This document shows, one piece after another, positions 21,529 to 46,676 of a stretch of 64,000 bases of DNA. The translations under genes were made by a program, and so were the position numbers. The stretch's first letter is position 1, and each line of letters opens with the position of its first letter. Origin of the DNA: Shimia sagamensis (lineage in GTDB: Bacteria > Pseudomonadota > Alphaproteobacteria > Rhodobacterales > Rhodobacteraceae); assembly GCF_900182745.1 (NCBI RefSeq), contig NZ_FXTY01000002.1, positions 62,001 to 126,000 on the forward strand. Direction: 5' to 3'. The notes under the pieces were generated by a model that ran no database searches, was not told where the DNA came from, and saw nothing but the letters and a program-made list of their open reading frames with translations.

Positions 21529-22371
21529 CTATACGTCTATTGGCCTTTTGGAAAAACTTGGGTTTCCGAAGGACCTTACTTGCCCTTGAAGCGCAAGTAA
21601 GCCGCCCAAGACGCCTTCCTTTTTGCCAAGGCTCTGGGCGACGCGCAGTCCCCGATCCAAGGCGGCAGACACCTCGTCTTGATGCAACTTCGTCACAGCA
21701 ATGGTCACCAACCTGGTGCCCAAATCACTGTCCAATTGCTGGCTCTCTGCCGTCGCACGTACAATGCCATGATGGCTTGGCAGATCAACCGCATTGGCAA
21801 TCACCGTTGCCGCCACATCGGCCAAAGCCGCGGAACCTGCCAACACTGAGACGGCATCCGCGATGCCAAAGGACAGGCTGCGCCCCCGCCATCCAGAGGT
21901 CGCCACCCCACGAACACTCCCGCGCCCGTGTAACGTTGCGCGGGCGATCCCCCCACCGATGTCGGTCACCATGACGGCCTCACCTTCAAGCACCAAGGCA
22001 ATATCGCCACCGTTATTGACGTATGCCTTGGTCACGTTGGGAGTCTCGGAAATGACCTGTGCAATTTCATCAGCAACCGCTCCAGCAACCGCCGCCATCG
22101 GTGTCACGAAACTGGGCAAGTACCGCGTTACCGCTTCATTCATTACCCTTGCAATATCGCCTCGAAAACATGTGTTGTTTGAGGCCGGTTGGCGAAGGTC
22201 AGGTAGTTCGTCCACCAATTCCTGAAGCACGGACTGAAATCGCGTCGCCGCTCTTTGATAGGCTTCCGCCTTGCCAGACCCCCATATTTCTATAACCAAA
22301 TCAATGGGCCCATGGTGCAGATGCATGCGCTTACCATCCGGTAACCAGGAAATCTGAGCGCCATTTTTCAT
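21529..22371 (-). CDS. UPF0280 family ApbE-like protein
   Basis: This 280-residue protein belongs to UPF0280, a branch of the ApbE (FAD:protein FMN transferase) superfamily. Visible family features are the NNTCFRGDIARVMNEAV segment, AAVAGAVADEIAQ, the AYVNNGGDIALVL strand and GVATSGWRGRSLSFGIADAV near the middle, comparable to the ApbE NxGGD and TSG motifs. It is the last gene of the molybdenum-hydroxylase operon, overlapping the upstream reductase gene by four bases. A job in flavin attachment to that reductase is a reasonable guess, not shown. It converges on the PhaC-like gene. Confidence 0.8.
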   Translation of the reverse strand: MKNGAQISWLPDGKRMHLHHGPIDLVIEIWGSGKAEAYQRAATRFQSVLQELVDELPDLRQPASNNTCFRGDIARVMNEAVTRYLPSFVTPMAAVAGAVADEIAQVISETPNVTKAYVNNGGDIALVLEGEAVMVTDIGGGIARATLHGRGSVRGVATSGWRGRSLSFGIADAVSVLAGSAALADVAATVIANAVDLPSHHGIVRATAESQQLDSDLGTRLVTIAVTKLHQDEVSAALDRGLRVAQSLGKKEGVLGGLLALQGQVRSFGNPSFSKRPIDV

Positions 22372-23822
22372 GGCTTGGGCAATTTGGTTGGGACAATATG
22401 TGTCGCCTTCGCATATTCACCACCGGTGGTCAAAATATCCTGGATGTCTCGGATGTGCGTTATATGTCCCCCCAGTTCTTCATATACGCCACGTGGCACG
22501 GTGAATTCCAACGGTGCCACAATGGCGGGCGTCGGCACCATTCCAAACGCACCTTCGGGCATCTTGGTCACATCGGCCATCAGCGTGATCCCGCCCCCTG
22601 GCCAGACATATGCGTGTGTGCCTCCAACAGTGACTTCGGCCTGCCCGCTTTGCACCGCGCGAGTGAGCTTTACAGGATTTTGCGTCACGCCAGAGCGCAG
22701 TGATCCACCTGCCCCCCCCATGAACATCACTGTGCACATTGCCGGTTCACAGTTTTCTGCAATCAACGCGACAGACGGTTTTAAAGCATCCGGCATTTCA
22801 CATTTTTGAGGAACAAGGTTGGCATCCAATTTGTAATAGGCAGCGTGTTCGCCGGTTGTGCTCACCATAAACAGCGTCAGCCCGTCACGCGCGCCTTTCT
22901 CCGCTCGCCATGGTCCAAGAATATCCAGTGGATCCACAATATCTGTGCCGCCCCAGCCCAAGCCAGGGTCCGCCACCTGAAAATATCGTCCGGGTGTGCT
23001 GCGGCGGCCTTTGATGCGAATGCCGGTGCTTGGCCAGTCGATGACCTTGCCTGCTTGGTGCTCACTGACAACGCCAGTGATGTGGTCATCCACAACAACA
23101 ACTTCGTCGACCAACCCTTTCCACTGGCTTGCAAACATACCAATCGTGGCAGACCCGCACCCAACACGCATACGAGCTTCTTTGTGTCCGTCAACAATCG
23201 GCGCCGCCCCGGCTTGCACCACCACCTCTGCACCATTTTCGACGGTCAAGTCCACGGGGGAGCGGTTCAACAGGTCCAGCAATACGTCACAGGTCGCGCG
23301 CCCTTCTGCTTTGCTGCCTCCAGTCAAGTGATCCACTCCGCCTAGGCTCATCATTTGGCTGCCATACTCGCTGGTCACCATCAGCCCTACGGCCTCACCT
23401 TGATGGCGCACCACCGCCCCCTCCACACCCAAATGCCGATCCGTGTCGATCTTCACTTTCACACCACAATAGGAAAAAATAGCCTCGGTCACGACGGTCA
23501 CACAATCGACACCGTCAATTTCCCGGCTCACCAAAAACGGTGCTGGCTTAAAATCCGGATAGGTGGTGCCCGCCCCCACTGCGGTGACAAACAGATCATC
23601 GGTCGACAACCCATCGTGCCAATCGCGCCCCAAAAACGGGCGCACGTCCGTGCCAGCCTCGATGGCCCGGTCCAAAACCGTCAGCGGATCACACCGTATG
23701 ATTTCTCCATTCACATTGGCGTAGCGGTCACATGCGCCAATTCGACCCTCCGCAATAAAACACATCACCGGACAGGCATCACATCGGATCTTCTCCTCGC
23801 GCTGTCTCGGTGACGGGCTCAT
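22368..23822 (-). CDS. 6-hydroxynicotinate reductase-like Fe-S flavoprotein
   Basis: This 484-residue protein is of the type annotated as 6-hydroxynicotinate reductase (Hnr), which in Eubacterium barkeri reduces 6-hydroxynicotinate to 1,4,5,6-tetrahydro-6-oxonicotinate. A cysteine cluster C14-x2-C17-x3-C21-x9-C31 at the N-terminus would hold an Fe-S cluster. A glycine-rich body contains GWGGTDIVDPLDILGPW and FMGGAGGSLRSGVTQNP. Residues 164-170 read DHLTGGS, close to the ApbE flavinylation motif. It overlaps the hydroxylase gene upstream and the ApbE-like gene downstream by four bases each. The true substrate here is unproven. Confidence 0.75.
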   Translation of the reverse strand: MSPSPRQREEKIRCDACPVMCFIAEGRIGACDRYANVNGEIIRCDPLTVLDRAIEAGTDVRPFLGRDWHDGLSTDDLFVTAVGAGTTYPDFKPAPFLVSREIDGVDCVTVVTEAIFSYCGVKVKIDTDRHLGVEGAVVRHQGEAVGLMVTSEYGSQMMSLGGVDHLTGGSKAEGRATCDVLLDLLNRSPVDLTVENGAEVVVQAGAAPIVDGHKEARMRVGCGSATIGMFASQWKGLVDEVVVVDDHITGVVSEHQAGKVIDWPSTGIRIKGRRSTPGRYFQVADPGLGWGGTDIVDPLDILGPWRAEKGARDGLTLFMVSTTGEHAAYYKLDANLVPQKCEMPDALKPSVALIAENCEPAMCTVMFMGGAGGSLRSGVTQNPVKLTRAVQSGQAEVTVGGTHAYVWPGGGITLMADVTKMPEGAFGMVPTPAIVAPLEFTVPRGVYEELGGHITHIRDIQDILTTGGEYAKATHIVPTKLPKP

Positions 23823-26530
23823 GGCTTGGCGGCCTTTAACGCTGCCAACACCCGATCCGGTCGGGCAGGCAATTGTGTCAGAACAGCCCCCGTAGCATGG
23901 CGTATCGCGTTGAGTATTGCCGGTGCTGTCGGGATCAGCACATGTTCCCCCAACCCTTTGGCGCCCATCGGTCCTTCCGGATCAGGCACCTCAATCAAAT
24001 GCGACACCACCTCCGGCACATCCCCGATCGTGGGGATCAGGTAATCATGCAGGTTCTCCGTGATGCCTGGGTGAAACTCTTCCATCAACGCCATGCCAAG
24101 CCCCTGGGCTATTCCACCTTCGATCTGACCTTCCGCAAGCAATGGGTTGATCACTTTGCCCACATCATGTGCCGCTGTGACTTTTAAGACCTGCACGGTC
24201 CCAAGCGCCAAATCCACTTCCACCTCAGCCAATTGCGCCCCGTAGCCGTAAACTGCATAAGGCGCGCCCTGCCCGTCTTTATCCAGCGCTTCGGTTGGCG
24301 GATCGTAGCGCGCCTCAGCCCAAAGCACATAGCCATGCGCGTCCTCTGGCAGTTCTTGCAGCGATACGTCTCGCCGCACCGTGCCGTCAATCAAGGTCAG
24401 CACGGCCCCCGATAGGGACATCTGAGAGTGCGGACCAACGTTTGCGAGTTGCAAAGCCTTAGATCGCAACGCCTCGGCTGCCAACACAGCTGCTTTGCCG
24501 CTCACCACGGTTTGGCGGCTGGCCGACGTTTTGCCGCAATCCGGCGTCACGGCCGTATCTGCATCGATCAGCGTGACATGATGTACCGGAACCCCAAGCG
24601 CATCCGCCGCCAACTGCGCAATCACCGTGTTGGCCCCCTGGCCAATATCCATCGCCCCTTGATGCAAACAAATCTTGCCGTCTGCTGTGATCCCGATGCG
24701 CATGGTGGACGGGTTTGGCAAGGCTGTATTCCCGCAACCGTACCAACAGCTTGCAACGCCTATTCCGCGTGCTTTCTCTTTCGTCGCCGCGTTAAAGCCC
24801 GCCACCGCAATCAGAGCGGCATCCCACCGCGACTGCAATGCGTCCAAACAAGCCCCAATTCCCACTCCAGATAGCTCTTGGCCGCAAACCGTGGGCACAC
24901 CATCCGACAGTGCGTTCAACCGCCGGAACGCCAAACTGTCCATGCCCACTTGATCTGCCAACTGATCCAACAGCTGCTCCTGAAGCGCTGCTGCTTGTGG
25001 CACGCCAAAACCCCGAAACGCGCCGGAAACAGGCCCATTTGTGTGGATTGCGCGCGCCTCGGCCTCATAGTTTGGCACAATATAGGGTCCGCTGGCATGC
25101 ACCGGCACCCGCACCGCAACGGTTGGCCCCCAACTGGCATAAGCGCCGGTGTCAAAATCCCCGTCAAACGTCATCCCGACCAGCCGTCCGTCGATGTCCG
25201 CGCCAATCCTGGCCTGCATCTCTGCCGGATGGCGTTTGGTACTCGCCATCATGCTTTCGCCGCGAGAATAAACCATCGCACTTGGGCGCCCGGTTAGCAA
25301 CGTCACCAAACCGACCAAAGGCTGCACCGTCACATCCAGTTTGGCGCCAAAACCACCGCCCGTGGCCGCAGGTCGAATGCGCACTTTTTGCGTCGGTAGC
25401 CCCAAAACCTTGGCCGTCGTTTGTTGGTCCAAAACCGGCGCCTGCGTACAGGCTCGAATGTTGAGCACACCGCCGTCCATCCAAGCCAGACCCGCTTCCG
25501 GTTCAATATAGGCATGTTCCACATGCCCTGTTCGCAATGTGCCTTGCACAACATGCGCAGCATTTCCCAGCGAAGCCTCTGCGTCCCCTCGACGGACGAC
25601 GCCTGCAATCAATTGGTTTCCAGCACGGTCCAAATGAAGTTGGCGGGCGCTTTCATCACGTGCTTCTGTTGCTGTCTCAAAAGAATAAGATGGTTCCCAA
25701 CACACAGGAAAGCTGCCCAAATCCAAATTGGACACCACATCTTTGCCTCCGGCGACCAAAGCCACCGCCTCGCCGACCATACGGACCTCAGCCTCAGCCA
25801 ACACCGGCTGGTCCGAAAACCGTTCAATCACGCCGAAGCAATTTTCACCAGGAATGTTCTTAGCGGTAAATACACGCACGTCATGCGTCTTGGCCCAGCC
25901 CTCAATATCGCCAAAGGCAAAACCTGCGGCGGCATGCGGACTGCGTAGAGCCCGCACCCAAAGCGCCCCGTCAGGAACAATATCTGCACCAAACGCCTCG
26001 GTTCCCATAACTTTTGCAGCTCCGTCCAGCCGCTCGACACGCGCGCCAACAGCTTTGCCCGCATCCGGTTCTGGTCCAGCACCACTGCCCGCCGCATCCA
26101 GAACCGCATCAATGATTTTTGTATATCCCGTGCAGCGACACAGCACCCCGCTCAGTGCCGCTTCCACTGCCGCTCTATCTGGCGACACATTCTGTCGTAT
26201 CAATGCCTCCGCTGCCATCACCATGCCGGGCGTGCAAATCCCACATTGTGCGGCACCATGGCGCAAAAACGCGCGCTGCAACGCGTTTGGGCCAGCGCGT
26301 CCAACACCCTCGATGGTCTCAACCGAGCGCCCGGAGATCTGCGCCACAGGGGTTAAACAGGCACAGGTTGCCTTGCCATCCACCAACACAGTACACGCGC
26401 CGCAATCCCCGGCGTCACAGCCTACTTTTGTCCCGCGCAATTGTAAGTTATCCCGCAAGACATCGGACAAACGGCGCCCCATTGGCACGTCTATAGATTG
26501 GGGTTCACCGTTGACCTCAAAGGAAATCAT
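23819..26530 (-). CDS. Xanthine dehydrogenase-family hydroxylase, fused [2Fe-2S] and molybdopterin subunits
   Basis: This 903-residue fusion hydroxylates a ring carbon using water. Residues 1-150 are the small [2Fe-2S] subunit: plant-type cluster C38-x4-C43-x2-C46...C58 and the second cluster C96-x2-C99...C131-x-C133. From about 170 on is the molybdopterin subunit: GGFGAKLDVTVQPLVG, SGAFRGFGVPQAAA, MDIGQGANTVIAQLAADALG and the catalytic glutamate at about E862 in AKGLGEHVL. These two units are usually separate genes. With the FAD subunit upstream it makes a complete enzyme. The substrate is probably an N-heterocycle, given the next gene. Confidence 0.88.
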   Translation of the reverse strand: MISFEVNGEPQSIDVPMGRRLSDVLRDNLQLRGTKVGCDAGDCGACTVLVDGKATCACLTPVAQISGRSVETIEGVGRAGPNALQRAFLRHGAAQCGICTPGMVMAAEALIRQNVSPDRAAVEAALSGVLCRCTGYTKIIDAVLDAAGSGAGPEPDAGKAVGARVERLDGAAKVMGTEAFGADIVPDGALWVRALRSPHAAAGFAFGDIEGWAKTHDVRVFTAKNIPGENCFGVIERFSDQPVLAEAEVRMVGEAVALVAGGKDVVSNLDLGSFPVCWEPSYSFETATEARDESARQLHLDRAGNQLIAGVVRRGDAEASLGNAAHVVQGTLRTGHVEHAYIEPEAGLAWMDGGVLNIRACTQAPVLDQQTTAKVLGLPTQKVRIRPAATGGGFGAKLDVTVQPLVGLVTLLTGRPSAMVYSRGESMMASTKRHPAEMQARIGADIDGRLVGMTFDGDFDTGAYASWGPTVAVRVPVHASGPYIVPNYEAEARAIHTNGPVSGAFRGFGVPQAAALQEQLLDQLADQVGMDSLAFRRLNALSDGVPTVCGQELSGVGIGACLDALQSRWDAALIAVAGFNAATKEKARGIGVASCWYGCGNTALPNPSTMRIGITADGKICLHQGAMDIGQGANTVIAQLAADALGVPVHHVTLIDADTAVTPDCGKTSASRQTVVSGKAAVLAAEALRSKALQLANVGPHSQMSLSGAVLTLIDGTVRRDVSLQELPEDAHGYVLWAEARYDPPTEALDKDGQGAPYAVYGYGAQLAEVEVDLALGTVQVLKVTAAHDVGKVINPLLAEGQIEGGIAQGLGMALMEEFHPGITENLHDYLIPTIGDVPEVVSHLIEVPDPEGPMGAKGLGEHVLIPTAPAILNAIRHATGAVLTQLPARPDRVLAALKAAKP

Positions 26531-27369
26531 GGGATCTCCTCAATCACATCGTGCACCGCGCGACGCACCAATTCTACGGCCGCGTCACGTCGATAATCCG
26601 CGTCGCCACGGACATCCGAGATGGGCGACAAAACGTCCCCAAACTTATCTGATTGTACCAATTGGACAGCACTCGAAAGTTCACACCCAACCAGCACATT
26701 TTCCAACGCTGACACGCGACAGGCGACCGGTCCACAAGCGCCGACAGACACAGCCGCGGCTTTGATCACTTTGGCCTCGACCTCAAGAAGCACGGCGGTC
26801 ATTGCAATGGAAATCACCAAATGTTTGCGTGCCCCCAATTTTAAGAATCGGCTGCGTCCAACTGCACTTGCCTCCGGGATCAAAACAGACGTCACCACTT
26901 CGTCTTTCTCGCGTGAAATTTCTCTCGGGCCGGTCACAAACTGCGCCAATGGCACCTGACGAACCCCACGTTCGGACACCAATTCCACCTGCGCATCTAA
27001 TGCTAACAATGGCGGCATCCCATCCGCCGCAGGGGATGCATTGCAGATGTTCCCCGCAACCGTCCCGGCATTTTGAACCTGAATGCCGCCAACCTCACGC
27101 GCGGCTTGTTTGAGCATGTCAAACGCGGCTGGCAGCGGTGCGTCACACACATCCCGCCAGGTTGTTGCGGCCCCAATTCGCCAACCGGTGCCAGTCTTTG
27201 AGATCCCGCGAAGCTCGGCAATCTGCGTAATATCCAAAACACTTCCGCACAGCTCTTGCGCTTCAGAGGCCGCAAACACATCAGTGCATCCCGCCACAAG
27301 TTGCACGTCTGACCTCGCCAAAACAGCGAGCGCGTCTTTCAACTTGCCGGGGCGATGGTAAATCCCCAT
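26527..27369 (-). CDS. FAD-binding subunit of a xanthine dehydrogenase-family enzyme
   Basis: This is the 280-residue CoxM/NdhF-type subunit, which passes electrons from the Fe-S clusters to an acceptor. It starts MGIYHRPGKLKDALAVLA and has the FAD-binding motifs VAGCTDVFAA (where family members usually have xGGTDL), IGAATTWRDV and NAGTVAGNICNASPAAD, then the CO_deh_flav_C domain from about 165. It is the first gene of the operon, overlaps the hydroxylase gene by four bases, and is divergent from the MarR regulator. Confidence 0.9.
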   Translation of the reverse strand: MGIYHRPGKLKDALAVLARSDVQLVAGCTDVFAASEAQELCGSVLDITQIAELRGISKTGTGWRIGAATTWRDVCDAPLPAAFDMLKQAAREVGGIQVQNAGTVAGNICNASPAADGMPPLLALDAQVELVSERGVRQVPLAQFVTGPREISREKDEVVTSVLIPEASAVGRSRFLKLGARKHLVISIAMTAVLLEVEAKVIKAAAVSVGACGPVACRVSALENVLVGCELSSAVQLVQSDKFGDVLSPISDVRGDADYRRDAAVELVRRAVHDVIEEIP

Positions 27370-27488
27370 GGTGACCTCTCAAATCGTCAGGGCGCGGCAC
27401 AATAACTTGTGTGTATACCAATGGATTTTGCGGCAGCTTTTACGTGTCTGTCAACAAACCGCATCGATTGCCCGCAATAAGGCCACAT
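27370..27488. promoter_or_regulatory. Divergent control region between hydroxylase operon and MarR gene
   Basis: This 119-bp gap must contain the promoter of the leftward hydroxylase operon and that of the rightward MarR gene, the usual place for a MarR operator. It holds the short palindrome GTATAC near 27412-27417 within an AT-rich TTGTGTGTATACCAA. I do not see a long convincing inverted repeat. Confidence 0.45.
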
Positions 27489-27941
27489 ATGATGACCTCC
27501 AAAACGCCCCCTTTGTCCGCGACCGCCGCTGCTGATGCATATGTATTGGACGATCAGGTTGGTTTTCTCATGCGCCGTGCGAACCAAAGGCATCTGGCAA
27601 TTTTTTCGGAAGGTATTTCGGACCTGACCCCCACACAGTTTGCAGCTCTTGCCAAACTCTGTGAATTGGGCGCAGTTTCTCAAAACGCCTTGGGGCGTGC
27701 GACGTCCATGGACGGCGCCACGATCAAAGGCGTGGTCGATAGGCTGCGCCTCAAAGACCTGGTCGCGAGCACTCCGGACCCAGACGATCAGCGTCGCATC
27801 TTGCTCAAGCCAACTGCCGCCGGCTGGGATCTGTTTGAAGCGGTCGCACCGACGGCACATCAGATCACCCAAGACACGCTTGCCCCCCTGAATGACGCAG
27901 AGCAAACCATCTTCCTTTTGCTGCTTCAAAAGCTGACCTAA
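27489..27941 (+). CDS. MarR-family transcriptional regulator
   Basis: This 150-residue winged-helix protein would bind DNA as a dimer and respond to a small ligand. The MarR core is visible: helices around DLTPTQFAALAKLCELG, a recognition helix region NALGRATSMDGATIKGVVDRL, then the wing LVASTPDPDDQRRILLKPT. It is divergent from the hydroxylase/reductase operon, like NicR-type regulators of nicotinate genes, so it probably represses that operon until substrate appears. The start is ATG 27489 or 27492. It converges on the ABC transporter operon. Confidence 0.88.
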   Translation: MMTSKTPPLSATAAADAYVLDDQVGFLMRRANQRHLAIFSEGISDLTPTQFAALAKLCELGAVSQNALGRATSMDGATIKGVVDRLRLKDLVASTPDPDDQRRILLKPTAAGWDLFEAVAPTAHQITQDTLAPLNDAEQTIFLLLLQKLT

Positions 27942-28021: not shown

Positions 28022-28717
28022 TCAAACGCCAAGATGCCGTGCCAGTTTTGTCGGCTCTGACGCCACCTCGGCACGGGTCAAGACACCGCGCATCCGCCCA
28101 TTTTCCAACAACACCACTTGATCTCCCAACTCCGTTATGGCGTCCAGTCTCTGCTCCACCAATACCACGGCCACGCCCTTATCACGCATCTGCTCCGTGG
28201 CATCGCGGATGGACGTTATCATCGACGGTTGAAGCCCCTCTGTCGGCTCGTCAAGCAGCAAGACTTTTGGCCGCAAACACATGGCGCGGCCCATCGCCAA
28301 CATCTGTTGCTCACCACCGCTCAACGTTTTTGCACGTTGTCTGTATCGCTCGTTAAGCCTCGGAAAAAGCGTCAAAACTTCCTCCAATACCCGGGCATCC
28401 TTACCGTTCGTCAACCGTCCGACTTCTAGGTTTTCCGCGACCGTCATCTCTCCAAACAAACGGCGCCCTTGTGGCACGTAACCAATCCCCGCACGCGGCA
28501 CCTCGTGTGGTGGAAGATCTGATAAAACAGCGCCTTGCCATGTGACTTGACCAGCCATCAACGGCAACAGCCCCATGATGGATTTTACAGTGGTGGTTTT
28601 CCCGGCCCCATTGCGTCCCGTAAGGCAGAGAATTTCACCTGCCGTGGCAACAAATGACACCTCGCGCAACACTTGTGCGCGCCCATAACCTGCAGACACC
28701 CCTTCAAGCCGCAGCAT
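28022..28717 (-). CDS. livF: Branched-chain-type ABC transporter ATPase, LivF-like
   Basis: This 231-residue ATPase is of the LivF type, with Walker [10 protein letters not shown], signature LSGGEQQMLAMGRAM and Walker B VLLLDEPTEGL. Its start overlaps the end of the livG-like gene by 14 bases. It is the last gene of a five-gene transporter operon (binding protein, two permeases, two ATPases). By position next to the N-heterocycle genes the cargo may be that substrate; the family imports amino acids, amides, urea and aromatic acids. Confidence 0.92.
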   Translation of the reverse strand: MLRLEGVSAGYGRAQVLREVSFVATAGEILCLTGRNGAGKTTTVKSIMGLLPLMAGQVTWQGAVLSDLPPHEVPRAGIGYVPQGRRLFGEMTVAENLEVGRLTNGKDARVLEEVLTLFPRLNERYRQRAKTLSGGEQQMLAMGRAMCLRPKVLLLDEPTEGLQPSMITSIRDATEQMRDKGVAVVLVEQRLDAITELGDQVVLLENGRMRGVLTRAEVASEPTKLARHLGV

Positions 28718-29426
28718 GGCCACCCCCAAGGTACGCCGCCTGTACAGCAACATTGGCTTTGACGTCGTCTGGAATGCCTTCAAACAAGATCTTACCCGCG
28801 TCCAAAACAGTCACAAAATCAGACACTTGCATGACCACATCCATATTGTGTTCGATCAACAGAACTGTAGTTGTTCCAGCCAGTTCCAGGATCAGCTGAT
28901 TGAATGCCGCAACTTCACCGTCCGCCAATCCTTGCGTCGGTTCGTCCAAAATCAACAGCTTTGGCGCCTGCGCCAGCCCCATTGCAATTTCCAACAACCG
29001 CTGATGCCCATAGCTCAAATCTCCAGCCTCTTCGGAGCGGTGATCAATAAGGCCCACGCGCTCCAGTGATGAGTTTACTGCGTTCTCCACATCGGACCTC
29101 CCCGACACTGTCCGGCGTGCAGCCAAAGCCACATTTTCCCAAACGCTCAAGTTCGAAAAAATCGATGTGATTTGAAAGGTATAGCCCATACCCGCCGCAA
29201 TACGTTTATGGGCAGGCCACGCGGTCACATCGCGATCATCGAAGATTACAGTGCCTGCCGAAGGTGCAGTACGCCCACTTAACATACCAACAAGTGTGGT
29301 TTTGCCAGCGCCGTTGGGGCCAATCAATGCACGAACTTGCCCTTCAGGAATTTCAAGCGTCACGTCCTCTACAGCCATCAAGCCGTTGAATTCTTTGGTT
29401 AGTCCCTGAGCAGATAACAAACTCAC
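28704..29426 (-). CDS. livG: Branched-chain-type ABC transporter ATPase, LivG-like
   Basis: This 240-residue ATPase has Walker A GPNGAGKTT, signature DLSYGHQRLLEIAMGLA (Tyr-Gly in place of the usual Ser-Gly-Gly, common in LivG) and Walker [12 protein letters not shown]. The GTG start at 29426 is chosen because GGAGG lies eight bases upstream and it gives the four-base GTGA overlap with the preceding permease stop. An in-frame extension further upstream is inside the permease gene. Confidence 0.9.
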   Translation of the reverse strand: MSLLSAQGLTKEFNGLMAVEDVTLEIPEGQVRALIGPNGAGKTTLVGMLSGRTAPSAGTVIFDDRDVTAWPAHKRIAAGMGYTFQITSIFSNLSVWENVALAARRTVSGRSDVENAVNSSLERVGLIDHRSEEAGDLSYGHQRLLEIAMGLAQAPKLLILDEPTQGLADGEVAAFNQLILELAGTTTVLLIEHNMDVVMQVSDFVTVLDAGKILFEGIPDDVKANVAVQAAYLGGGHAAA

Positions 29427-31293: not shown

Positions 31294-31346
31294 CTATCCC
31301 CCTACCTCAAAGTGGGCGCGACATACCCGCCGCGCCCAAGCTCTCA

Positions 31347-32651: not shown

Positions 32652-32758
32652 CACTTTACCCCCTGTGTTCACATGGTCTGTGACCGAAAATTCCGTTACT
32701 CTTCACACTTGTTAGAGTGCGAATGAATGACGGTTCTGTCTAGAGGGCGCGTGTTGTG

Positions 32759-34192: not shown

Positions 34193-34220
34193 GCGGCGAC
34201 TATAACGACGGGTTAAAGAG

Positions 34221-35055: not shown

Positions 35056-35066
35056 GAGGATCGTTG

Positions 35067-38891: not shown

Positions 38892-38915
38892 AACGTGACC
38901 TATTAACACTGTGAT

Positions 38916-40130
38916 TTAAAAGAAGGATTGCAGTCCTGTTTGAGCACGACCCAAGATCAATGCATGCACATCATGCGTGCCTTCATAGGTGTTTACAGTT
39001 TCCAGGTTCACCATGTGACGGATCACGCCAAACTCAAGGCTAATGCCGTTGCCGCCATGCATATCGCGTGACATGCGCGCAATATCTAGTGCCTTGCCAC
39101 AGTTGTTGCGCTTGATGATCGACACCATTTCCGGCGCGGCTTTTGCCTCATCCATCAGACGGCCAACCCTCAGCGCGGCTTGAAGACCCAGAGAGATCTC
39201 GGTCTGCATGTTTGCCAACTTCAGCTGGAACAGCTGCGTTTGCGCCAGTGGCTTGCCAAACTGTTTGCGGTCCAGGCCATACTGACGCGCCGCGTGCCAG
39301 CAGAACTCCGCTGCCCCCATCGCACCCCATGCAATGCCATACCGCGCACGGTTCAGACAGCCGAATGGACCTTTCAGGCCTTCGACATTTGGCAGCAGAG
39401 CATCTTCGGACACTTCCACATTCTCGAGCACAATCTCACCGGTGATCGACGCGCGCAACGAGGCCTTGTGCATGATCTTTGGAGCTGAAAGTCCCTTGGT
39501 GCCTTTATCCAAAACAAAGCCGCGGATCTTGCCACCATGTGCGTCTGACTTGGCCCACACCACAAACACATCTGCAATTGGCGAGTTGGAAATCCACATT
39601 TTTGCACCATTCAGCACATAGCCACCGTCCACCTTTTTGGCAGTGGTTTTCATGCTGCCCGGATCAGATCCCGCATCCGGCTCGGTCAGTCCAAAGCAGC
39701 CAATCCATTCGCCAGACGCCAGTTTTGGCAGGTACTTCTTGCGCTGCTCTTCAGAGCCATAGGCGTAGATCGGATACATCACCAGTGAGCTCTGCACCGA
39801 CATCATCGAACGATAGCCGCTGTCCACACGCTCCACTTCGCGCGCCACAAGACCGTAGGTAACGTAGCCAGCACCAATACCGCCGTATTCTTCTGGGATG
39901 GTGGTGCCCAACAGGCCCATCTCGCCCATCTCGGCAAAAATCGCCGGATCGGTCTCTTCCTGCTCAAACGCAGCGGTAACCCGTGGCGCCAGCTTTTCGT
40001 CACAATAAGCGCGTGCGGCATCCCGGATCATACGCTCATCTTCTTCAAGCTGGCTTTCAATCAGAAACGGGTCTTCCCAGTTGAACGAACCCAATTCCGG
40101 TTTGGACTGTGGTGCCAGATCCTTGGCCAT
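38916..40130 (-). CDS. gcdH: Glutaryl-CoA dehydrogenase
   Basis: This FAD enzyme oxidatively decarboxylates glutaryl-CoA to crotonyl-CoA, passing electrons to ETF. The 404-residue protein resembles GcdH more than other acyl-CoA dehydrogenases: [12 protein letters not shown]-type loop ([16 protein letters not shown]), [33 protein letters not shown], and the catalytic glutamate at about E383 in [16 protein letters not shown]. The ATG 40130 follows a purine-rich site; a Met 12 codons upstream is not needed. A 6-bp hairpin (40147-40163) lies in its leader. It is divergent from the XRE-cupin regulator. Confidence 0.92.
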
Positions 40131-40313
40131 GGTCTCTCCTTCCGTCCGCCTCACATAGAGGCGCAAAACATCAATTTCCGTTGTAGCCCAAAATGTCCGT
40201 CCCTGCCTCTACGTCAAGGCAACCCGTATCAAACGCCGCTACGTCGCGAAAACTTTCTTGCCTTCTATTGCGCAGAATATTGAGCATTGCTAGACCCAAT
40301 TGATCAAAGTTTC

Positions 40314-40356: not shown

Positions 40357-40368
40357 ACGGAGGACCCG

Positions 40369-40938
40369 ATGAGCGATCCGTTTGACGTAGGCGACCGCCT
40401 TAAAAAACTGCGCCTTTCCGCAGGATTGAGTCAGCGTCAACTGGCGCAATACGCTGGCGTGCCCCATGGTCAGATCTCGATGATCGAAACCAATCGCTCC
40501 AGTCCCTCTGTTGCCAGCTTGCGCAAGATATTGGGCGGCATGGGTATGTCTATGGGAGAGTTCTTTGAACCGGAAACCCATGCTCCAGGGCAAGTTTTCT
40601 TTGGTCCAGAGGCTCTCTCTGACCTTACGTCACAACTGGGCGCCGAGGCTTCGAAACTGACCCTCAAACAGGTAGGAAACGCCAAAGACCACGGCTTGCA
40701 GATCCTGCGTGAACACTACGCCCCAGGAGCTGACACCGGTGAAACCATGCTATCCCACCCCGCAAACGAAGGCGGCATTGTGCTCTCAGGCGAACTCGAA
40801 GTGACCGTGGGCCCCCAAACCCAAACCCTGCGTGCCGGGGACAGCTATCTGTTTGACAGCCGACAACCACACCGCTTCCGCAACATCTCTGACAAACCGG
40901 CCGAGGTGGTTTCCGCCTGTACGCCGCCATACCTCTGA
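40369..40938 (+). CDS. XRE-family regulator with C-terminal cupin domain
   Basis: This 189-residue regulator of the PuuR/MppR type has an HTH at about residues 8-62 (LRLSAGLSQRQLAQYAGVPH; ISMIETNRSSPSVASLRKIL). A cupin sensor domain follows at about 115-185 (SGELEVTVGPQTQTLRAGDS, YLFDSRQPHRFRN). The ATG 40369 follows CGGAGG by six bases. It is divergent from gcdH and ten bp upstream of the CoA-transferase gene, so it most likely controls glutaryl-CoA metabolism here and perhaps the adjacent transporter. Confidence 0.88.
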   Translation: MSDPFDVGDRLKKLRLSAGLSQRQLAQYAGVPHGQISMIETNRSSPSVASLRKILGGMGMSMGEFFEPETHAPGQVFFGPEALSDLTSQLGAEASKLTLKQVGNAKDHGLQILREHYAPGADTGETMLSHPANEGGIVLSGELEVTVGPQTQTLRAGDSYLFDSRQPHRFRNISDKPAEVVSACTPPYL

Positions 40939-40947
40939 AGGCTCCCC

Positions 40948-42060
40948 ATGACCCCACTCAAAGGTCTTAAAGTTGTAGAACTCGCCCGCATTTTGGCTGG
41001 CCCCTGGATTGGCCAATCGCTGGCCGACCTTGGTGCTGAAGTTATCAAAGTGGAAGCTCCGCAAGGTGATGACACCCGAACCTGGGGCCCGCCCTTTATC
41101 GAGCGCGACGGCGACAAAACCGCAGCCTATTTCTACGCAGCAAATCGCGGCAAGACCTCCGTGGTCGCGGATTTCCGAACTGAGAAAGGCCGCGCCCAGG
41201 TGCTGGAACTGATCAAAGACGCCGATATTCTAATCGAGAACTTCAAAGTTGGCGGGTTGAAGAAATACGGTTTGGACTACGACACGCTATCCCAAGTCAA
41301 TCCGCGCCTGATCTACTGCTCGATCACCGGCTTTGGCCAAACTGGCCCTTATGCCTCCCGCGCTGGCTATGATTTCCTGTTGCAGGGCATGTCTGGCCTG
41401 ATGTCGATCACCGGCGAGCCAGAACGCCAACCACAAAAGGTTGGTGTCGCGGTCACGGACGTGGTCACGGGTCTCTATGGCACCATCGGTATTCTTGCCG
41501 CTGTGGAGCAACGCCATGCCACTGGCAAAGGCCAACACATCGACATGTCTTTGTTGGATTGTGCCACGGCCATGCTCGCCAATCAGGCAATGAACTACCT
41601 GGCCACCGGCGACAGCCCAAATCGCAAAGGCAACGCACATCCCAACATTGCACCATATCAAGTGGTGCCCACATCGGACGGCCACATCATCATTGCGGTG
41701 GGCAATGACGGTCAATTCCAACGTCTTTGTGGCGTTCTTTCGCGTGGCGACTTAGGGGATGCACCGGACTATGCAACCAACCAATTGCGCGTCGCCAATC
41801 GCGAAGCGCTGACCAAACAGATCGAGCTGGAAACCAGTAAGTGGACATCGGAAAATCTGCTGTCCGCTTTGGAAGCAGCCACAGTCCCTGCTGGCCCGAT
41901 CAACTCCATTGAGCAAGCGCTCACCGATCCCCAAGTCGAAGCCCGCGGTATGGTGGTTGAGGCCGAAGGCGTGCGGGGCTTGCGCGGTCCTTGGGTGTTC
42001 TCGGACGCAGAGCTGGCGATAAACCGCACCGCGCCTGTTCTGCCAAAACCTGAGACTTAA
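40948..42060 (+). CDS. CaiB/BaiF-family CoA transferase (succinyl-CoA:glutarate type likely)
   Basis: This family III CoA transferase has 370 residues. It starts PLKGLKVVELARILAGPW, and the catalytic aspartate is D142 in SRAGYDFLLQGMSGLM; ADLGAEVIKVEAPQGDDTR and TGKGQHIDMSLLDCATAMLA are also typical. Next to gcdH, the best guess is activation of glutarate to glutaryl-CoA with a donor such as succinyl-CoA, as in SUGCT. That is by context. Its TAA overlaps the stop of the convergent livF-like gene: the two stops share the palindrome TTAA. Confidence 0.85.
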   Translation: MTPLKGLKVVELARILAGPWIGQSLADLGAEVIKVEAPQGDDTRTWGPPFIERDGDKTAAYFYAANRGKTSVVADFRTEKGRAQVLELIKDADILIENFKVGGLKKYGLDYDTLSQVNPRLIYCSITGFGQTGPYASRAGYDFLLQGMSGLMSITGEPERQPQKVGVAVTDVVTGLYGTIGILAAVEQRHATGKGQHIDMSLLDCATAMLANQAMNYLATGDSPNRKGNAHPNIAPYQVVPTSDGHIIIAVGNDGQFQRLCGVLSRGDLGDAPDYATNQLRVANREALTKQIELETSKWTSENLLSALEAATVPAGPINSIEQALTDPQVEARGMVVEAEGVRGLRGPWVFSDAELAINRTAPVLPKPET

Positions 42061-42746
42061 ACCCCAAGGTACCTATCGGTCTCTTCTGGCCCCAAATCAC
42101 CAAACGCTCCGGCCCAGACCGTGCGTCCCTTTTCAAGGATAACCGCACAGTCAGCCACCTGCCCCAATTCTTTTAGCGACTTGTCGATCGCAATGATCGC
42201 CATACCAGTCTCCGCTTTCAGCTTGGCCACAGCTTCCCAGATTTCCTGCCGGATCACCGGTGCCAACCCCTCGGTGGCCTCATCCAGAATAAGTAACTTT
42301 GGATTGGTCATCAGCGCGCGACCAATCGCCAACATCTGTTGCTCCCCACCGGAGAGCGAAGCTGCTGACTGATCACGCCGCTCTTCCAAGCGCGGAAACA
42401 GGCGACACACCGCCTCAAAGTCCCAAGCCCCTTTGCGGGCGGCCGCAATCAAGTTCTCGTGCACCGACAGATTTGCGAAACATCGGCGCCCCTCCGGCAC
42501 CAAACCAATGCCCAATCGAGCAGCCTTATAGGACGGCAACGCCCCGATATCCTGCCCGCCAAATTGCACCGCGCCATCCGAGTTCTTGAGCATCCGGCAC
42601 ATGACTTTCACGGTGGTGGTCTTGCCCATACCGTTGCGTCCCATCAGCGCCAAAACTTCGCCTTCACCAACGCTCAACGACACATCAAACAGCGCCTGAC
42701 TTGGACCATAAAACGCCGCGACATTTTTTAGCTCGATCAAACTCAT
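42057..42746 (-). CDS. livF: Branched-chain-type ABC transporter ATPase, second system, LivF-like
   Basis: This 229-residue ATPase has Walker A GRNGMGKTT, signature LSGGEQQMLAIGRAL and Walker B LLILDEATEGL, with Ala in place of the usual Pro after Glu, which is seen in some LivF proteins. It is the last gene of the second transporter operon. It overlaps the livG-like gene by four bases and is tail-to-tail with the CoA transferase. Confidence 0.92.
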   Translation of the reverse strand: MSLIELKNVAAFYGPSQALFDVSLSVGEGEVLALMGRNGMGKTTTVKVMCRMLKNSDGAVQFGGQDIGALPSYKAARLGIGLVPEGRRCFANLSVHENLIAAARKGAWDFEAVCRLFPRLEERRDQSAASLSGGEQQMLAIGRALMTNPKLLILDEATEGLAPVIRQEIWEAVAKLKAETGMAIIAIDKSLKELGQVADCAVILEKGRTVWAGAFGDLGPEETDRYLGV

Positions 42747-43498
42747 GCTGGCACCTCGTCGCCCAGATAGGCCCGCCGAATTTCCGGGTTCACTTTGATT
42801 TCCTCTGGCGTGCCAGTTGCGATCACCTCGCCATAAACCAACACACTAATCCGATCCGCCAACGCAAAAACCGCATCCATATCGTGCTCGATCAACAGAA
42901 TTGGTGCTTCTTTCCGCAACTCCGTCAAAAGCCCAATCATTTGTTGCGCCCCTTCCAAGCCCAGTCCTGCCATCGGCTCATCCATCAGGAAAGCTTTGGG
43001 TTTAAGGGTCAGGGCAACTGCCACCTCAAGCTGCCGTCGTTGACCATGACTCAAATCAGCAGTCCGTGTCGTTGCAAACTCAGCCAGGCCAACCTGCGCC
43101 AGTGCCGCCTTAGCGGCAGATACAAGCCGCACATCTTTCATGACCGGCTTAAAGAACGCCATCACATTGCCGCGTTGCCCCAGTGCTCCAAGCACCGCGT
43201 TTTGCAACACGGTGTGCTCCATGGCGAGCGACGAAATCTGAAATGTTCTCCCCAACCCTTTGCGTGCACGCTCTGCTGGTCCAACGTCGGTCAGATGCTC
43301 ATCCATCAGGCTGACTGCACCACTATCGGAGGCCAAATGCCCGGTGATTTGCTGGATCAACGTCGATTTCCCAGCCCCATTGGGCCCAATCAAGGCGTGG
43401 ATTTCCCCTTTGCGCAAATCCAATGACACATCGTTGGTCGCTTTGAGGGCACCAAAGCTTTTGAAAAGTCGATCTGTGCGCAACACCACATCAGTCAT
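42743..43498 (-). CDS. livG: Branched-chain-type ABC transporter ATPase, second system, LivG-like
   Basis: This 251-residue ATPase has Walker A GPNGAGKST, signature DLSHGQRRQLEVAVALT and Walker B KAFLMDEPMAGLG. The ATG 43498 is used; it overlaps the end of the livM-like gene by eight bases. An upstream extension of ten codons is open but lies fully within that gene. Confidence 0.9.
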   Translation of the reverse strand: MTDVVLRTDRLFKSFGALKATNDVSLDLRKGEIHALIGPNGAGKSTLIQQITGHLASDSGAVSLMDEHLTDVGPAERARKGLGRTFQISSLAMEHTVLQNAVLGALGQRGNVMAFFKPVMKDVRLVSAAKAALAQVGLAEFATTRTADLSHGQRRQLEVAVALTLKPKAFLMDEPMAGLGLEGAQQMIGLLTELRKEAPILLIEHDMDAVFALADRISVLVYGEVIATGTPEEIKVNPEIRRAYLGDEVPA

Positions 43499-44474
43499 GG
43501 GCTTTCTCCCGACCTGCAAAGGCACCAATCAAGCCCCCCTTCGCAAAAAGCACGATACCGAGCAGCAGCGCGCCTAAGTAGACATGCCAGAACTCTGACA
43601 GACCCCCGAGCGTATGCTCCAGAAGAATAAAGATCATCGCGCCAATCACTGGCCCAAACAGACGCCCCACCCCACCGATGATGATGAAAATAATGATCTC
43701 ACCCGACATCTGCCAACTCAGCATGGTGGGGCTGACAAACCGGTTGAGGTCCGCAAACAACGCCCCAGCCAGTCCGGTCACCGCGCCGGAAATCACAAAA
43801 GCCACCAGCCGAAGGTGGTACGGCTTCAGGCCAACCGACAACACGCGCGTCTCATTCTGCCGCGCCGCGCTTAGCGCCAAACCAAAGGCCGATTTGTGAA
43901 TTGCATTCATCAGCAGCAACACCAGACACAGGATCACAAAACACAGGCCAAAGAACTGGATTGGCACCAGTGTGTTCAACCCCGGAAACCCGTTGCGCAC
44001 ATAGATCGATAGGCCATCTTCGCCGCCATAGGCAGGCCAGCTGATCGCGAAGTAGTAGACCATCTGCCCAAAGGCCAAAGTGATCATAATGAAATACACG
44101 CCTGAGGTTCGAAGGCTCAGTACCCCGATCGCCAGCGCCGCCAGCGCACTTGTCACCATCGCCACCAGCCAGATCACTGGCATCGATTTGGTTCCCTCGA
44201 TCAGAAACGGTGCTTCCATAATTGGTGCGTAGGACTGTGCATGGCTCGCCAAAATTCCCATCGCGTAGCCACCAATTCCGAAAAACGCCGCATGCCCCAA
44301 GCTCACCAACCCGCCTGTGCCCAGTGCCAGGTTCAACCCAACGCCGGCCAATGCAAAAATCGCGGCCCGTGTCGCCAAGGTAATGATAAATGGCTCATCC
44401 GCCATCAACGCCCAAAGCGGCACCCCAAGCAGCACAGCTAATGAAGCAACGTTGATCCAAGTTTCGCGTGTCAT
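43491..44474 (-). CDS. livM: Branched-chain-type ABC transporter permease, second system, LivM-like
   Basis: This 327-residue inner-membrane permease has the LivM signature GVGLNLALGTGGLVSLGHAA near the N-terminus, the ATPase-coupling loop SAARQNETRVLSVGLKPYHL, and IIFIIIGGVGRLFGPVIGA toward the end. It starts one base after the livH-like gene stop, so it is tightly coupled. Confidence 0.92.
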   Translation of the reverse strand: MTRETWINVASLAVLLGVPLWALMADEPFIITLATRAAIFALAGVGLNLALGTGGLVSLGHAAFFGIGGYAMGILASHAQSYAPIMEAPFLIEGTKSMPVIWLVAMVTSALAALAIGVLSLRTSGVYFIMITLAFGQMVYYFAISWPAYGGEDGLSIYVRNGFPGLNTLVPIQFFGLCFVILCLVLLLMNAIHKSAFGLALSAARQNETRVLSVGLKPYHLRLVAFVISGAVTGLAGALFADLNRFVSPTMLSWQMSGEIIIFIIIGGVGRLFGPVIGAMIFILLEHTLGGLSEFWHVYLGALLLGIVLFAKGGLIGAFAGREKAHD

Positions 44475-44475
44475 C

Positions 44476-45393
44476 TTAGGCCACCCCATATAGTCCGCGA
44501 GGGCGGAACACCAAAACGCCTGCCATCAGGATATAAATCAGCATCGATGCCAACGCAGAGCCGACAGTCACCGCCGAGGATGGCTCCAAAAACAGTGCAA
44601 AAATCTGCGGCAACAAAATCCGGCCCATTGTATCCGTGAACCCCACCAAAAGTGCGCCAACAAACGCCCCTTTGATCGAGCCAATGCCACCAATCACAAT
44701 CACCACAAATGCCAAAATCAGCACAGGCTCGCCCATGCCAACCTGAACCGATTGAATGGCCCCTACCAAGGCTCCTGCAAAGCCAGCCAAAGCCGCGCCA
44801 AGCGCAAAAACAAAGGTATAGAGCTTGGCAATGTCCACGCCGAGGGCAGCGATCATTTCCCGATCAGCCTCCCCCGCACGGATGCGAATGCCCACGCGTG
44901 TGCGATTGATCAGGGCAAACATACCCCCCGCCACCAACAGGCCAATCACAATAATTGACAACCGGTAAGCCGGAAACTGGATGCCACCTGGCAAGGTCAC
45001 AGGCCCTGACAACACCTTCGGCACGTCGAGGAACAGCGGGAACGAGCCAAACATCCAGCGCGTGCCCTCCGAAAAAATTAGGATCAGCGCGAAAGTCGCC
45101 AGCACCTGATCCAAATGGTCCCGGTCATAGAGCCGCCGGATGATGGTCAACTCAATCAACGCGCCAGCCAGCGCTGCGGCGGCTAAAGAAGCCATCAAGG
45201 CCAGCACAAACGAGCCGGTTGCCGCTGCCACTGCTGCCGCTGCAAAGGCGCCAATCATGTAAAGCGACCCATGCGCCAAATTGATCAGTCCCATCACGCC
45301 AAAGACCAGCGTCAGTCCAGCGCTCATCAAAAATAGCATTACGCCAAACTGTAACCCGTTCAGCATTTGCTCTATGAAAAGTAGTATTGTCAT
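44476..45393 (-). CDS. livH: Branched-chain-type ABC transporter permease, second system, LivH-like
   Basis: This 305-residue membrane permease has MSAGLTLVFGVMGLINLAHG, the coupling loop RAGEADREMIAALGVDIAKL and FVVIVIGGIGSIKGAFVGAL. The ATG 45393 is used in place of a Met nine codons upstream. A 150-bp gap with a stable hairpin separates it from the binding-protein gene, which usually lets the binding protein be made in excess. Confidence 0.92.
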   Translation of the reverse strand: MTILLFIEQMLNGLQFGVMLFLMSAGLTLVFGVMGLINLAHGSLYMIGAFAAAAVAAATGSFVLALMASLAAAALAGALIELTIIRRLYDRDHLDQVLATFALILIFSEGTRWMFGSFPLFLDVPKVLSGPVTLPGGIQFPAYRLSIIVIGLLVAGGMFALINRTRVGIRIRAGEADREMIAALGVDIAKLYTFVFALGAALAGFAGALVGAIQSVQVGMGEPVLILAFVVIVIGGIGSIKGAFVGALLVGFTDTMGRILLPQIFALFLEPSSAVTVGSALASMLIYILMAGVLVFRPRGLYGVA

Positions 45394-45512
45394 GGCCCTC
45401 GTCCGGTGCCAAAGAAGCACCCCTCCGCCAAATGATCAGCGCAGAAAATTTCGGTTATTCAGGATATTAAAGACGGAACATCATGCACCTACCCCACCAG
45501 GATGCATGGAAG

Positions 45513-45534
45513 GGGAAGGCCATAAAGCCTTCCC
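45513..45534 (-). other. Intercistronic hairpin between binding-protein and permease genes
   Basis: GGGAAGGC and GCCTTCCC form a perfect 8-bp stem with a six-base loop nine bases after the binding-protein stop codon. On the minus strand no T-run follows, so it looks like an mRNA-stabilising stem or partial terminator, not a full stop. Confidence 0.6.
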
Positions 45535-45542
45535 AAAATCAC

Positions 45543-46676
45543 TTACATCTTGCAATCTGCTGCATAGGCATCCGCGTGGTCGGACAGGCCGGTCGCAATG
45601 ATCTTGTTGGTGTACACGTCACCTTCTTTGATCACTTCACGCACGTAGATGTCCTGCACCGGATGGTGGTTGTCGCCAAAGGCAAACTTACCGCGCACGG
45701 AGTCAAACTCCGCATCTTTCAATGCCGCACGGAAGGCATCCGCATCCGCAACATCCGCCTTGCCCATCGCAGAAATCAGCAGGTTAGCGGTGTCAAACCC
45801 TTGGCTCGCGTAGAGCGACGGCAGACGGCCATATTCGGCCTGGAAAGTTTCCACAAACGCCGCGTTGGTGGCGTTGTCGATGTCTTTGTTCCACTGGCTG
45901 GTGTTTTTCACACCCATTGCCGCGTCGCCTACCGCTTGCAGAATGCCTTGGTCAAAGCTGAACGCCGGGCCGACCAATGGCAGTTCCACACCGCTCGCGG
46001 CATATTGTTTCAGGAAGGAAATCCCCATGCCGCCTGGCAGGAAAAAATACACGCTATCGGCTCCGGACGCCCGGATCTGTGCAATCTCGGCTGCGTAGTC
46101 CGTCTGGCCCAATTTGGTGTAAAGCTCACCAGCCATCTCACCTTCGAAAAAGCGCTTGTAACCCGTCAGTGCGTCCTTACCGGCCGGATAGTTTGGTGCC
46201 AAAATGAAACTGTTCTTAAAGCCAGTGTCGTTTGCATACGCACCTGCCGCCTCGTGCAGATTGTCGTTCTGCCATGCGACGTTGAAGTAGTTTTTGTGAC
46301 AGCCTTTGCCAGCCAATGGAGATGGACCAGCGTTTGGTGACAGGTAGAATTTGCCCTGCGCAGTTGCTGCAGGCACCACAGCCATCGCGAGGTTGGACCA
46401 GATGATGCCGGTCAAAATATCAACCTTCTCAGACTGAATCATTTTGTCTGCCAATTGCACAGCAATGTCAGGTTTGCGCTGGTCATCCTCGATAACCACT
46501 TCAAGGTCATCCCGACCGGCCTGCTGCACAGCCAGCATAAAGCCATCCCGCACATCAATCCCTAATCCTGCACCGCCGCCGGACAGTGTGGTGATCATTC
46601 CAACTTTCACATCTGCCTGCGCTGTTGCGCCTGCCAATGCCATCGCCGCAGCCAATGCCGCACTCCGCAACTTCAT
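45543..46676 (-). CDS. Periplasmic substrate-binding protein, second branched-chain-type transporter
   Basis: This 377-residue type I binding protein has a Sec signal peptide (LRSAALAAAMALAGATAQA) and a mature start DVKVGMITTLSGGGAGLG, typical of aromatic-acid or dicarboxylate-type members (GRDDLEVVIEDDQRKPDIA; LSPNAGPSPLAGKGCH). The cargo is not readable, but adjacency to gcdH and the CoA transferase suggests a compound degraded through glutaryl-CoA. It is the first gene of the operon; a promoter must lie in the following 270 bp. Confidence 0.9.
   Translation of the reverse strand: MKLRSAALAAAMALAGATAQADVKVGMITTLSGGGAGLGIDVRDGFMLAVQQAGRDDLEVVIEDDQRKPDIAVQLADKMIQSEKVDILTGIIWSNLAMAVVPAATAQGKFYLSPNAGPSPLAGKGCHKNYFNVAWQNDNLHEAAGAYANDTGFKNSFILAPNYPAGKDALTGYKRFFEGEMAGELYTKLGQTDYAAEIAQIRASGADSVYFFLPGGMGISFLKQYAASGVELPLVGPAFSFDQGILQAVGDAAMGVKNTSQWNKDIDNATNAAFVETFQAEYGRLPSLYASQGFDTANLLISAMGKADVADADAFRAALKDAEFDSVRGKFAFGDNHHPVQDIYVREVIKEGDVYTNKIIATGLSDHADAYAADCKM

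Follow-up and report, generated by a model that had tools for sequence, protein, structure and literature searches.

A putative reductive nicotinate-degradation island in Shimia sagamensis with HyuAB as a candidate replacement for enamidase

We analyzed a window of 64,000 nucleotides from Shimia sagamensis (assembly GCF_900182745.1, contig NZ_FXTY01000002.1, positions 62,001 to 126,000 of the forward strand), in which an island at window positions 21529-46676 encodes a molybdenum (Mo) hydroxylase, a 6-hydroxynicotinate-reductase-type ring reductase (HNR), a UPF0280 protein, the two-subunit ATP-dependent lactamase HyuAB, glutaryl-CoA dehydrogenase (GcdH), a CaiB-type CoA-transferase and two branched-chain-type ABC importers (Table 1). 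From the sequences, we hold with reasonable confidence that this is a reductive nicotinate-degradation island in which HyuAB does the job of an enamidase. The components named in the initial annotation of this DNA, including the two local regulators (MarR-type and XRE-cupin), are all present, and the logic it proposed, a hydroxylase and ring reductase followed by HyuAB as a new variant in place of enamidase, gained support from the mutually exclusive distribution of the two ring-opening enzymes described below.

Mutually Exclusive Distribution of HyuAB and Enamidase

HNR and UPF0280 were found in an identical set of 68 out of 385 alphaproteobacterial genomes. The enamidase query taken from HNR loci was an amidohydrolase matching the solved Eubacterium barkeri enamidase 2vun (E=2.7e-114). 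Close enamidases (71-100% identity to the query) were recovered from 30 of the 385 genomes, 29 of them HNR-positive, and close HyuA homologs (at least 53% identity; 54-100% in HNR-positive genomes) from 42, of which 37 were HNR-positive. The 68 HNR-positive genomes were divided into 29 with enamidase, 37 with HyuA, none with both and two with neither (Fisher p 3e-17, uncorrected for kinship). In the last two (G248, 70% complete, and G335, 86% complete) a contig ends within about 1 kb of HNR. A second set, 26 plasmids carrying HNR, was split in the same manner, with enamidase on 16, HyuA on 10, and no plasmid with both or neither. No enamidase was found in the genome containing the window, where the best match reached only E=3.6e-5 over about 70 residues.

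In 22 of the 37 genomes, no more than 15 kb separated HyuA from HNR; in 6 the two shared a contig at a greater distance, and in 9 they were on different contigs. The corresponding numbers for enamidase in its 29 genomes were 18, 3 and 8. Together with the 10 HyuA plasmids, this shows that hyu genes are linked to those of the reductase in relatives, the opposite of what the initial annotation had said would speak against its pathway. The Mo subunit of the hydroxylase was near HNR in 57 of 67 loci of the class survey, and the HNR-UPF0280-hydroxylase arrangement and its link to hyuAB recur widely and are not due to chance. A careful HNR tree (72 rows) requires six switches of ring-opener, with at least four of them forced by well-supported branches, and independent pairs on the tree went opposite ways in four of four cases. 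A quick tree (74 rows) requires seven. G050 and G253, whose HNR is in pieces, were left out of both trees, and G361 and G255, which have long branches, were also left out of the careful one. The best reading of these sequence comparisons is that HyuAB represents a recurrent replacement for enamidase in the reductive nicotinate pathway.

The distribution within the genus is consistent with this reading. Among 24 genomes, HNR was present in 9, HyuA (66-100% identity) in 10 and the hydroxylase in 12, and all nine HNR-positive genomes contained HyuA. HNR is found toward one end of the island and hyuAB toward the other, yet they are jointly absent from G004, G018 and G021, which retain the hydroxylase. 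In stretches from G018 and G004 (L154, L156, L166, L167) the importer, MarR and FAD genes were kept, and HNR, UPF0280 and HyuAB were missing.

Several observations weigh against the replacement of enamidase by HyuAB, or against the role proposed for the island as a whole. The formal independence of the tree comparison is small, with only four independent pairs (p 0.125). Identity thresholds were chosen after the lists had been seen, both in the class survey (HyuA 53%, enamidase 70%) and in the named set (HyuAB 50%, enamidase 60%; 45% for enamidase in the neighbor-family count below); at E<=1e-180, the overlap of HyuA with close-enamidase genomes was still 0 of 29. Enamidase-like genes at E<=1e-40 occurred in 36 of the 385 genomes, the distant ones (37-44%) including second copies in genomes of the enamidase type. 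Three HyuA genomes (G086, G126, G311) each have a single such distant gene (37-40%) and would hold both enzymes if enamidase-like genes were counted down to 37%. In G322, an enamidase genome, a distant HyuAB (approximately 31-36%) is near HNR. HyuA without HNR was seen in 12 of the 385 genomes at E<=1e-180, five of them at 53% or more, and on 8 plasmids; the family therefore has further uses. G104 (L168), 99% complete, has an enamidase with 77% identity to the query and no HNR. Of the 80 named HNR loci, 54 showed no ring-opener at the thresholds within 10 kb, 31 of these in stretches of at least 20 kb; two named loci (L253, L259) have enamidase matches of 49% and 52%, under the 60% threshold. 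Within the genus, the HyuA match of G010 and G011 contains one in-frame stop, and G019 has HyuA without a detected HNR in a broken assembly of 180 contigs, in which the HyuA contig starts beside livF. Because three relatives keep the hydroxylase without HNR, the hydroxylase may have another role. Both HyuAB and CaiB score under the cut-offs of their named equivalogs (caprolactamase in the case of HyuAB), and it is from its distribution that HyuAB is provisionally assigned to this lactam.

HyuAB as a Putative Lactamase

The translation of HyuA contains the ATP motifs DVGGTFTD, DMGGT and GASPGP, which were compared with those described for the caprolactamase subunit CapA, and the closest solved relative of HyuB is CapB (6yra). 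Residues D40, H104, D107 and H129 of HyuB align with the CapB metal ligands, Asp41 and the following His/Asp/His (PMC8453981). A six-membered lactam, delta-valerolactam, is known to be opened by an oxoprolinase pair, OplAB (PMC11033972). HyuAB of the window has the two subunits, ATP motifs and metal ligands in common with CapAB and OplAB, and is proposed to be the ring-opener of the reduced lactam. Unlike the enamide proposed here, the CapAB and OplAB substrates in the cited papers are saturated lactams.

HNR and UPF0280

HNR of the window (22368..23822) is 56-71% identical to other alphaproteobacterial HNRs. Depositors labeled 17 of the 26 plasmid homologs '6-hydroxynicotinate reductase' and 3 'hypothetical protein', and the remaining 6 had no listed gene or annotation. 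Four N-terminal cysteines (C14, C17, C21, C31) were invariant in HNR alignments. The motif GCGSAT was more variable: T226 was replaced by Ala in 1 of 16 alignment rows and was less than 90% conserved in 25 rows. HNR was not matched by any Pfam or NCBIfam model, had no solved relative by sequence, and gave no Foldseek match at E<=0.001 with a weak predicted model (pLDDT 64). Contigs labeled SAR116 (L186, L204, L212) bear HNR clusters, L212 also with HyuAB, and the pathway may reach into abundant marine bacteria such as SAR116.

The gene after HNR encodes a UPF0280/COG2122 protein and not a hydroxylase subunit. We propose that UPF0280 is a maturation partner of HNR and, because the co-occurrence of the two is perfect, that it may be needed for active HNR. 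E. barkeri Hnr contains a covalent flavin and uses ferredoxin as electron donor. The UPF0280 model has an ApbE fold, in common with ApbE/Ftp flavinyl transferases. In one study, the likeness of COG2122 to ApbE is said to stop short of the flavin-binding region (PMC5764234), and given this contrary statement we do not claim UPF0280 as a proven flavinyl transferase. The same study ties COG2122 of Desulfovibrio to homocysteine synthesis (PMC5764234), unlike the partnership with HNR proposed here. The fuller claim, that HyuAB is an ATP-dependent 1,4,5,6-tetrahydro-6-oxonicotinate hydrolase repeatedly swapped with enamidase and that HNR depends for its activity on UPF0280, acting in the cytoplasm as its dedicated flavinyl transferase or as another kind of maturase, is tentative, and we think it somewhat more apt to be wrong than right.

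The Hydroxylase and the Case for Nicotinate

The initial annotation described a three-part molybdenum hydroxylase; the hydroxylase is there, but it consists of two polypeptides, a fused [2Fe-2S] and Mo subunit and an FAD subunit. The Mo subunit matched both Mo chains of the solved E. barkeri nicotinate dehydrogenase 3hrd by phmmer (251.7 and 222.4 bits). Aldehyde oxidoreductase 1dgj, a single chain matched over a longer stretch, outscored both (397.5 bits). Judged by sequence, this enzyme is a candidate nicotinate dehydrogenase. A nicotinamidase-like gene was present in 25 of the 80 named HNR loci, divergent from the FAD gene and at most 800 bp away in 24 of them; HyuAB was found in the stretch for 10 of the 25. 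Such a gene also occurred in one locus of the class survey, of the enamidase type, and the one family member checked scored above the NCBIfam cut-off. Homarine degradation, our first idea for the island, was dropped since the linkage of nicotinamidase and enamidase indicates nicotinate rather than homarine.

Proposed Pathway

Gene content, conserved neighborhoods, the lack of a detectable enamidase in the genome and the exclusive split of close enamidase and HyuAB are direct observations, and the chemical steps that follow are all inferred. Nicotinate would be taken up by the importer and converted by the Mo enzyme to 6-hydroxynicotinate, as its family suggests. HNR, made active by UPF0280 if their co-occurrence is a guide, would reduce this to 1,4,5,6-tetrahydro-6-oxonicotinate, probably using reduced ferredoxin. 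HyuAB would then open the reduced lactam with ATP, a task of enamidase in E. barkeri and, as far as gene content tells, in 29 of the 68 HNR-positive alphaproteobacterial genomes. The enamine product would shed ammonia to give 2-formylglutarate, decarboxylation and oxidation to glutarate may proceed via spontaneous or unlinked steps, and CaiB and GcdH would form glutaryl-CoA and crotonyl-CoA, respectively.

The initial annotation had seen a possibly complete route with the deamination step missing. The route may not be complete, as decarboxylation and semialdehyde oxidation have no gene in the window. The missing deamination is most simply a part of ring opening and need not be a gap, as the E. 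barkeri ring-opening enzyme is described as deaminating its substrate at the same time as it forms 2-formylglutarate (PMC9304392). Were the product of HyuAB the same enamine, the loss of ammonia would need no extra gene.

The link of gcdH and caiB to the nicotinate island is weak and is supported by the chemistry and by one family, f104. Against solved glutaryl-CoA dehydrogenases such as 3gnc, GcdH scored 645 bits; its top match (4w9u, 689 bits) is named merely 'acyl-CoA dehydrogenase'. Of the 15 genomes of the genus that lack HNR, 14 have the gene, and of 12 stretches around gcdH in such genomes, one (G019) contained HyuA and 9 of the other 11 had caiB beside gcdH. Because caiB adjoins gcdH in HNR-negative relatives too, the position of gcdH here says little, and this part of the initial proposal is weakened; in the four HNR genomes sampled from f104, by contrast, both genes are always found no farther than about 15 kb from HNR. 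The Azorhizobium glutarate route, treated by Kitts in 1992, reportedly requires gcdH/caiB-type enzymes.

Alternative Explanations

HyuAB could instead open saturated 6-oxopiperidine-3-carboxylate after an extra reduction, yielding 2-(aminomethyl)glutarate that is deaminated by an enzyme encoded elsewhere. Opening a saturated lactam is more difficult than opening an enamide, which would account for the need for ATP, and there are known ATP-dependent lactamases for saturated lactams (PMC8453981, PMC11033972). An OYE-type ene-reductase (56-99% identical) was near HNR in 8 loci (including L073:295-2415), 7 of them labeled HyuAB, and SDR-family genes, mostly 31-39% identical, were seen in 7 HyuAB loci vs. 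1 enamidase locus among 97 loci compared. The OYE gene is, however, limited to these 8 HNR loci and was not found in the gene list of the window, and no aminotransferase was recognized among families recurring in at least 5 of the 97 loci. HNR is, moreover, common to enamidase loci, where the enamide is the expected product, and we regard an extra reduction as unlikely. That HyuAB is a hydantoinase or oxoprolinase of unrelated function, carried as a passenger of the island, is very unlikely, even though distant HyuAB paralogs occur in several loci and five of the 385 genomes hold close HyuA without HNR. The exclusive split with close enamidase covers all but two of the 68 genomes and every one of the 26 plasmids, and HNR and HyuA are missing together from the three relatives that retain the hydroxylase.

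The names of the Mo hydroxylase and HNR derive from their families, and the substrate could be another pyridine carboxylate or a betaine, such as picolinate, homarine or trigonelline. Homarine is a ubiquitous marine pyridine, and a 2026 report of genes for its degradation is cited in PMC13390433. Against this stand the nicotinamidase-like gene that neighbors the hydroxylase in 24 of the 80 named loci, the alternation of a nicotinate-pathway enamidase with HyuAB on one HNR tree, and the match of the Mo subunit to both nicotinate dehydrogenase Mo chains. The Mgd route implies an N-methylglutamate-type intermediate, which also argues against homarine here. It is this Mgd route that is mentioned for homarine (PMC13390433), and a substrate other than nicotinate seems to us quite improbable. 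The alternative for which the evidence is nearly balanced concerns the other half of the island: gcdH, the XRE gene, caiB and the second importer may be an older glutarate or lysine module merely adjoining the nicotinate genes. The frequency of gcdH and of the gcdH-caiB pair in relatives lacking HNR favors such a module, but the Azorhizobium route runs through glutarate (PMC3511419) and both genes accompany HNR throughout f104. An older module and a nicotinate-degradation island using HyuAB are compatible, as an old module can be recruited by proximity.

Gene Content of the Island

The membrane-protein and PCu(A)C genes separate the two halves of the island, hydroxylase/HNR/importer and hyuAB/gcdH/caiB, and possibly have a role in uptake or electron transfer. 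The membrane protein adjoins the importer in many named HNR loci and was seen in 6 of the 67 class loci; its membership in the nicotinate system is uncertain. The first importer is probably the nicotinate importer: its type is common beside HNR in named loci, yet was found in only 4 of the 67 class loci. The second importer also adjoins caiB in L154, L155 and L160, stretches of the genus in which HNR is missing, and is probably not specific to the nicotinate pathway. MarR genes of similar type were present in 38 of the 67 class HNR loci. Beyond the island, the flanks look like housekeeping genes, with RNase E (from family search) past one end and, on the opposite end, what we take to be ksgA and pdxA.

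Table 1. Genes of the island in window coordinates, with the basis of each assignment.
Feature	Position	Strand	Basis
UPF0280/COG2122 protein, predicted ApbE-like fold	21529..22371	-	NF003322, 318 bits (cut-off 290)
HNR (6-hydroxynicotinate-reductase-type)	22368..23822	-	Alignments, depositor names of homologs
Fused [2Fe-2S] and molybdopterin subunit, xanthine-dehydrogenase family, 903 aa	23819..26530	-	Pfam domains
FAD subunit of the same Mo hydroxylase	26527..27369	-	PF00941, PF03450
MarR-family regulator, start codon uncertain	27411..27941	+	PF01047
Branched-chain-type ABC importer (LivF, LivG, LivM, LivH, substrate-binding protein)	28022..32672	-	Pfam
Membrane protein of no known family; true start probably within the ORF	32759..34408	-	No Pfam/NCBIfam match
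PCu(A)C-domain gene, divergent from the membrane-protein gene	32759-35006 (span of both genes)		
HyuA, putative ATP-binding subunit of ATP-dependent lactamase	35037..37130	+	Pfam, ATP motifs
HyuB, putative metal-binding subunit of lactamase	37127..38878	+	PF02538, alignment with CapB 6yra
Glutaryl-CoA dehydrogenase (gcdH); true start probably downstream of the listed TTG	38916..40166	-	Solved relatives
XRE-cupin regulator, PuuR-like	40369..40938	+	PF01381 and PF07883; PuuR model below cut-off
CaiB/BaiF CoA-transferase, probable succinyl-CoA:glutarate type	40948..42060	+	NF052585, 531 bits (cut-off 750)
Second branched-chain-type ABC importer	42057..46676	-	Pfam

Neighborhoods and Accessory Genes in Other Loci

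Family f104 provides a direct comparison of the two variants. Its loci share gcdH, caiB, MarR, a 2-oxoacid:ferredoxin oxidoreductase, HNR, UPF0280, a pair of AA_synth genes and a Mo subunit, and differ in the ring-opener, which is HyuAB in G126 vs. enamidase in G232, G322 and G400; the linked Mo subunit is 69% identical. G126 has no Rieske gene, and the FNR gene of the other f104 loci was not seen in it. The close HyuA genomes without HNR were G149 and four members of a single family, f114 (G136, G239, G329, G405). In three of the four (L169, L170 and L171, from G136, G405 and G239) HyuAB stands beside a Mo subunit 44-47% identical to that of f104, possibly reflecting a different ring pathway that uses the same type of lactamase.

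Recurrent neighbors were counted as families present in at least five of 97 loci (35 enamidase, 62 HyuAB; seven loci of the same genus removed), and included a ferredoxin-NADP reductase, nicotinamidase, the OYE gene and generic SDR genes. Two tandem AA_synth genes (PF06684; solved relatives 2qtp and 3byq) accompany HNR in L076:14969-16185 and other loci. Within the stretches read, a second AA_synth copy was present in 23 of 29 enamidase loci vs. 1 of 36 HyuAB loci (G126), and it therefore seems tied to the enamidase variant. AA_synth had no match in the genome of the window, an absence that is not firm as the search matched no control genome either.

Ferredoxin-NADP-reductase-like genes of one type were found in 21 searched stretches, the member checked scoring under the NCBIfam cut-off; on plasmids, the gene adjoins HNR in Sagittula and lies a few genes off in Sulfitobacter. 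Near HNR in the 67 class loci, we found 2-oxoacid:ferredoxin oxidoreductase in six and aldehyde:ferredoxin oxidoreductase in two. These ferredoxin-linked neighbors would fit a ferredoxin-dependent HNR, as known for E. barkeri; in this window, no gene for a ferredoxin-reducing enzyme is next to HNR. In L060:13751-15478 (G403) and L115 (G325), the aldehyde:ferredoxin oxidoreductase (PF02730, PF01314) stands beside the hydroxylase and HNR. This enzyme could couple oxidation of a pathway aldehyde to the reduction of ferredoxin for HNR.

Comparison With Known Systems

The reductive nicotinate pathway itself is already known in its Azorhizobium type, and reduced-lactam nicotinate turnover in aerobic proteobacteria is known chemistry, to which we add a broader gene-level map. 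For the HyuAB variant and the link between UPF0280 and HNR, we found no report among the papers listed by full-text searches, which excluded most subscription papers. The variant is a case, open to experiment, of a simple hydrolase whose place in one pathway seems to have been taken repeatedly by an unrelated enzyme that consumes ATP. If the role in HNR maturation is true, UPF0280, a family of uncertain role, would be explained as the obligate partner of one enzyme, and this branch of COG2122 would gain its first substrate. HNR and UPF0280 also form a marker pair for spotting the pathway in genomes, SAR116 bacteria included.

E. barkeri resembles the window in its hydroxylase and HNR types and differs in being anaerobic and in opening the ring with an enamidase (2vun). 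Its nicotinate fermentation ends in propionate and pyruvate, not in glutaryl-CoA. A second known system is the nicotinate cluster of Azorhizobium caulinodans and Bradyrhizobiaceae (AZC_2804-2790, blr3818-3830). Its genes were identified through BLAST searches using the E. barkeri cluster, and its HNR has 42% identity to E. barkeri Hnr (PMC3511419). As in our island, it combines HNR and genes for the first three steps with an ABC importer, and its described route passes through the reduced lactam, a tetrahydro-oxonicotinate, and exits to glutarate (PMC3511419); the route to glutarate is already known from Azorhizobium.

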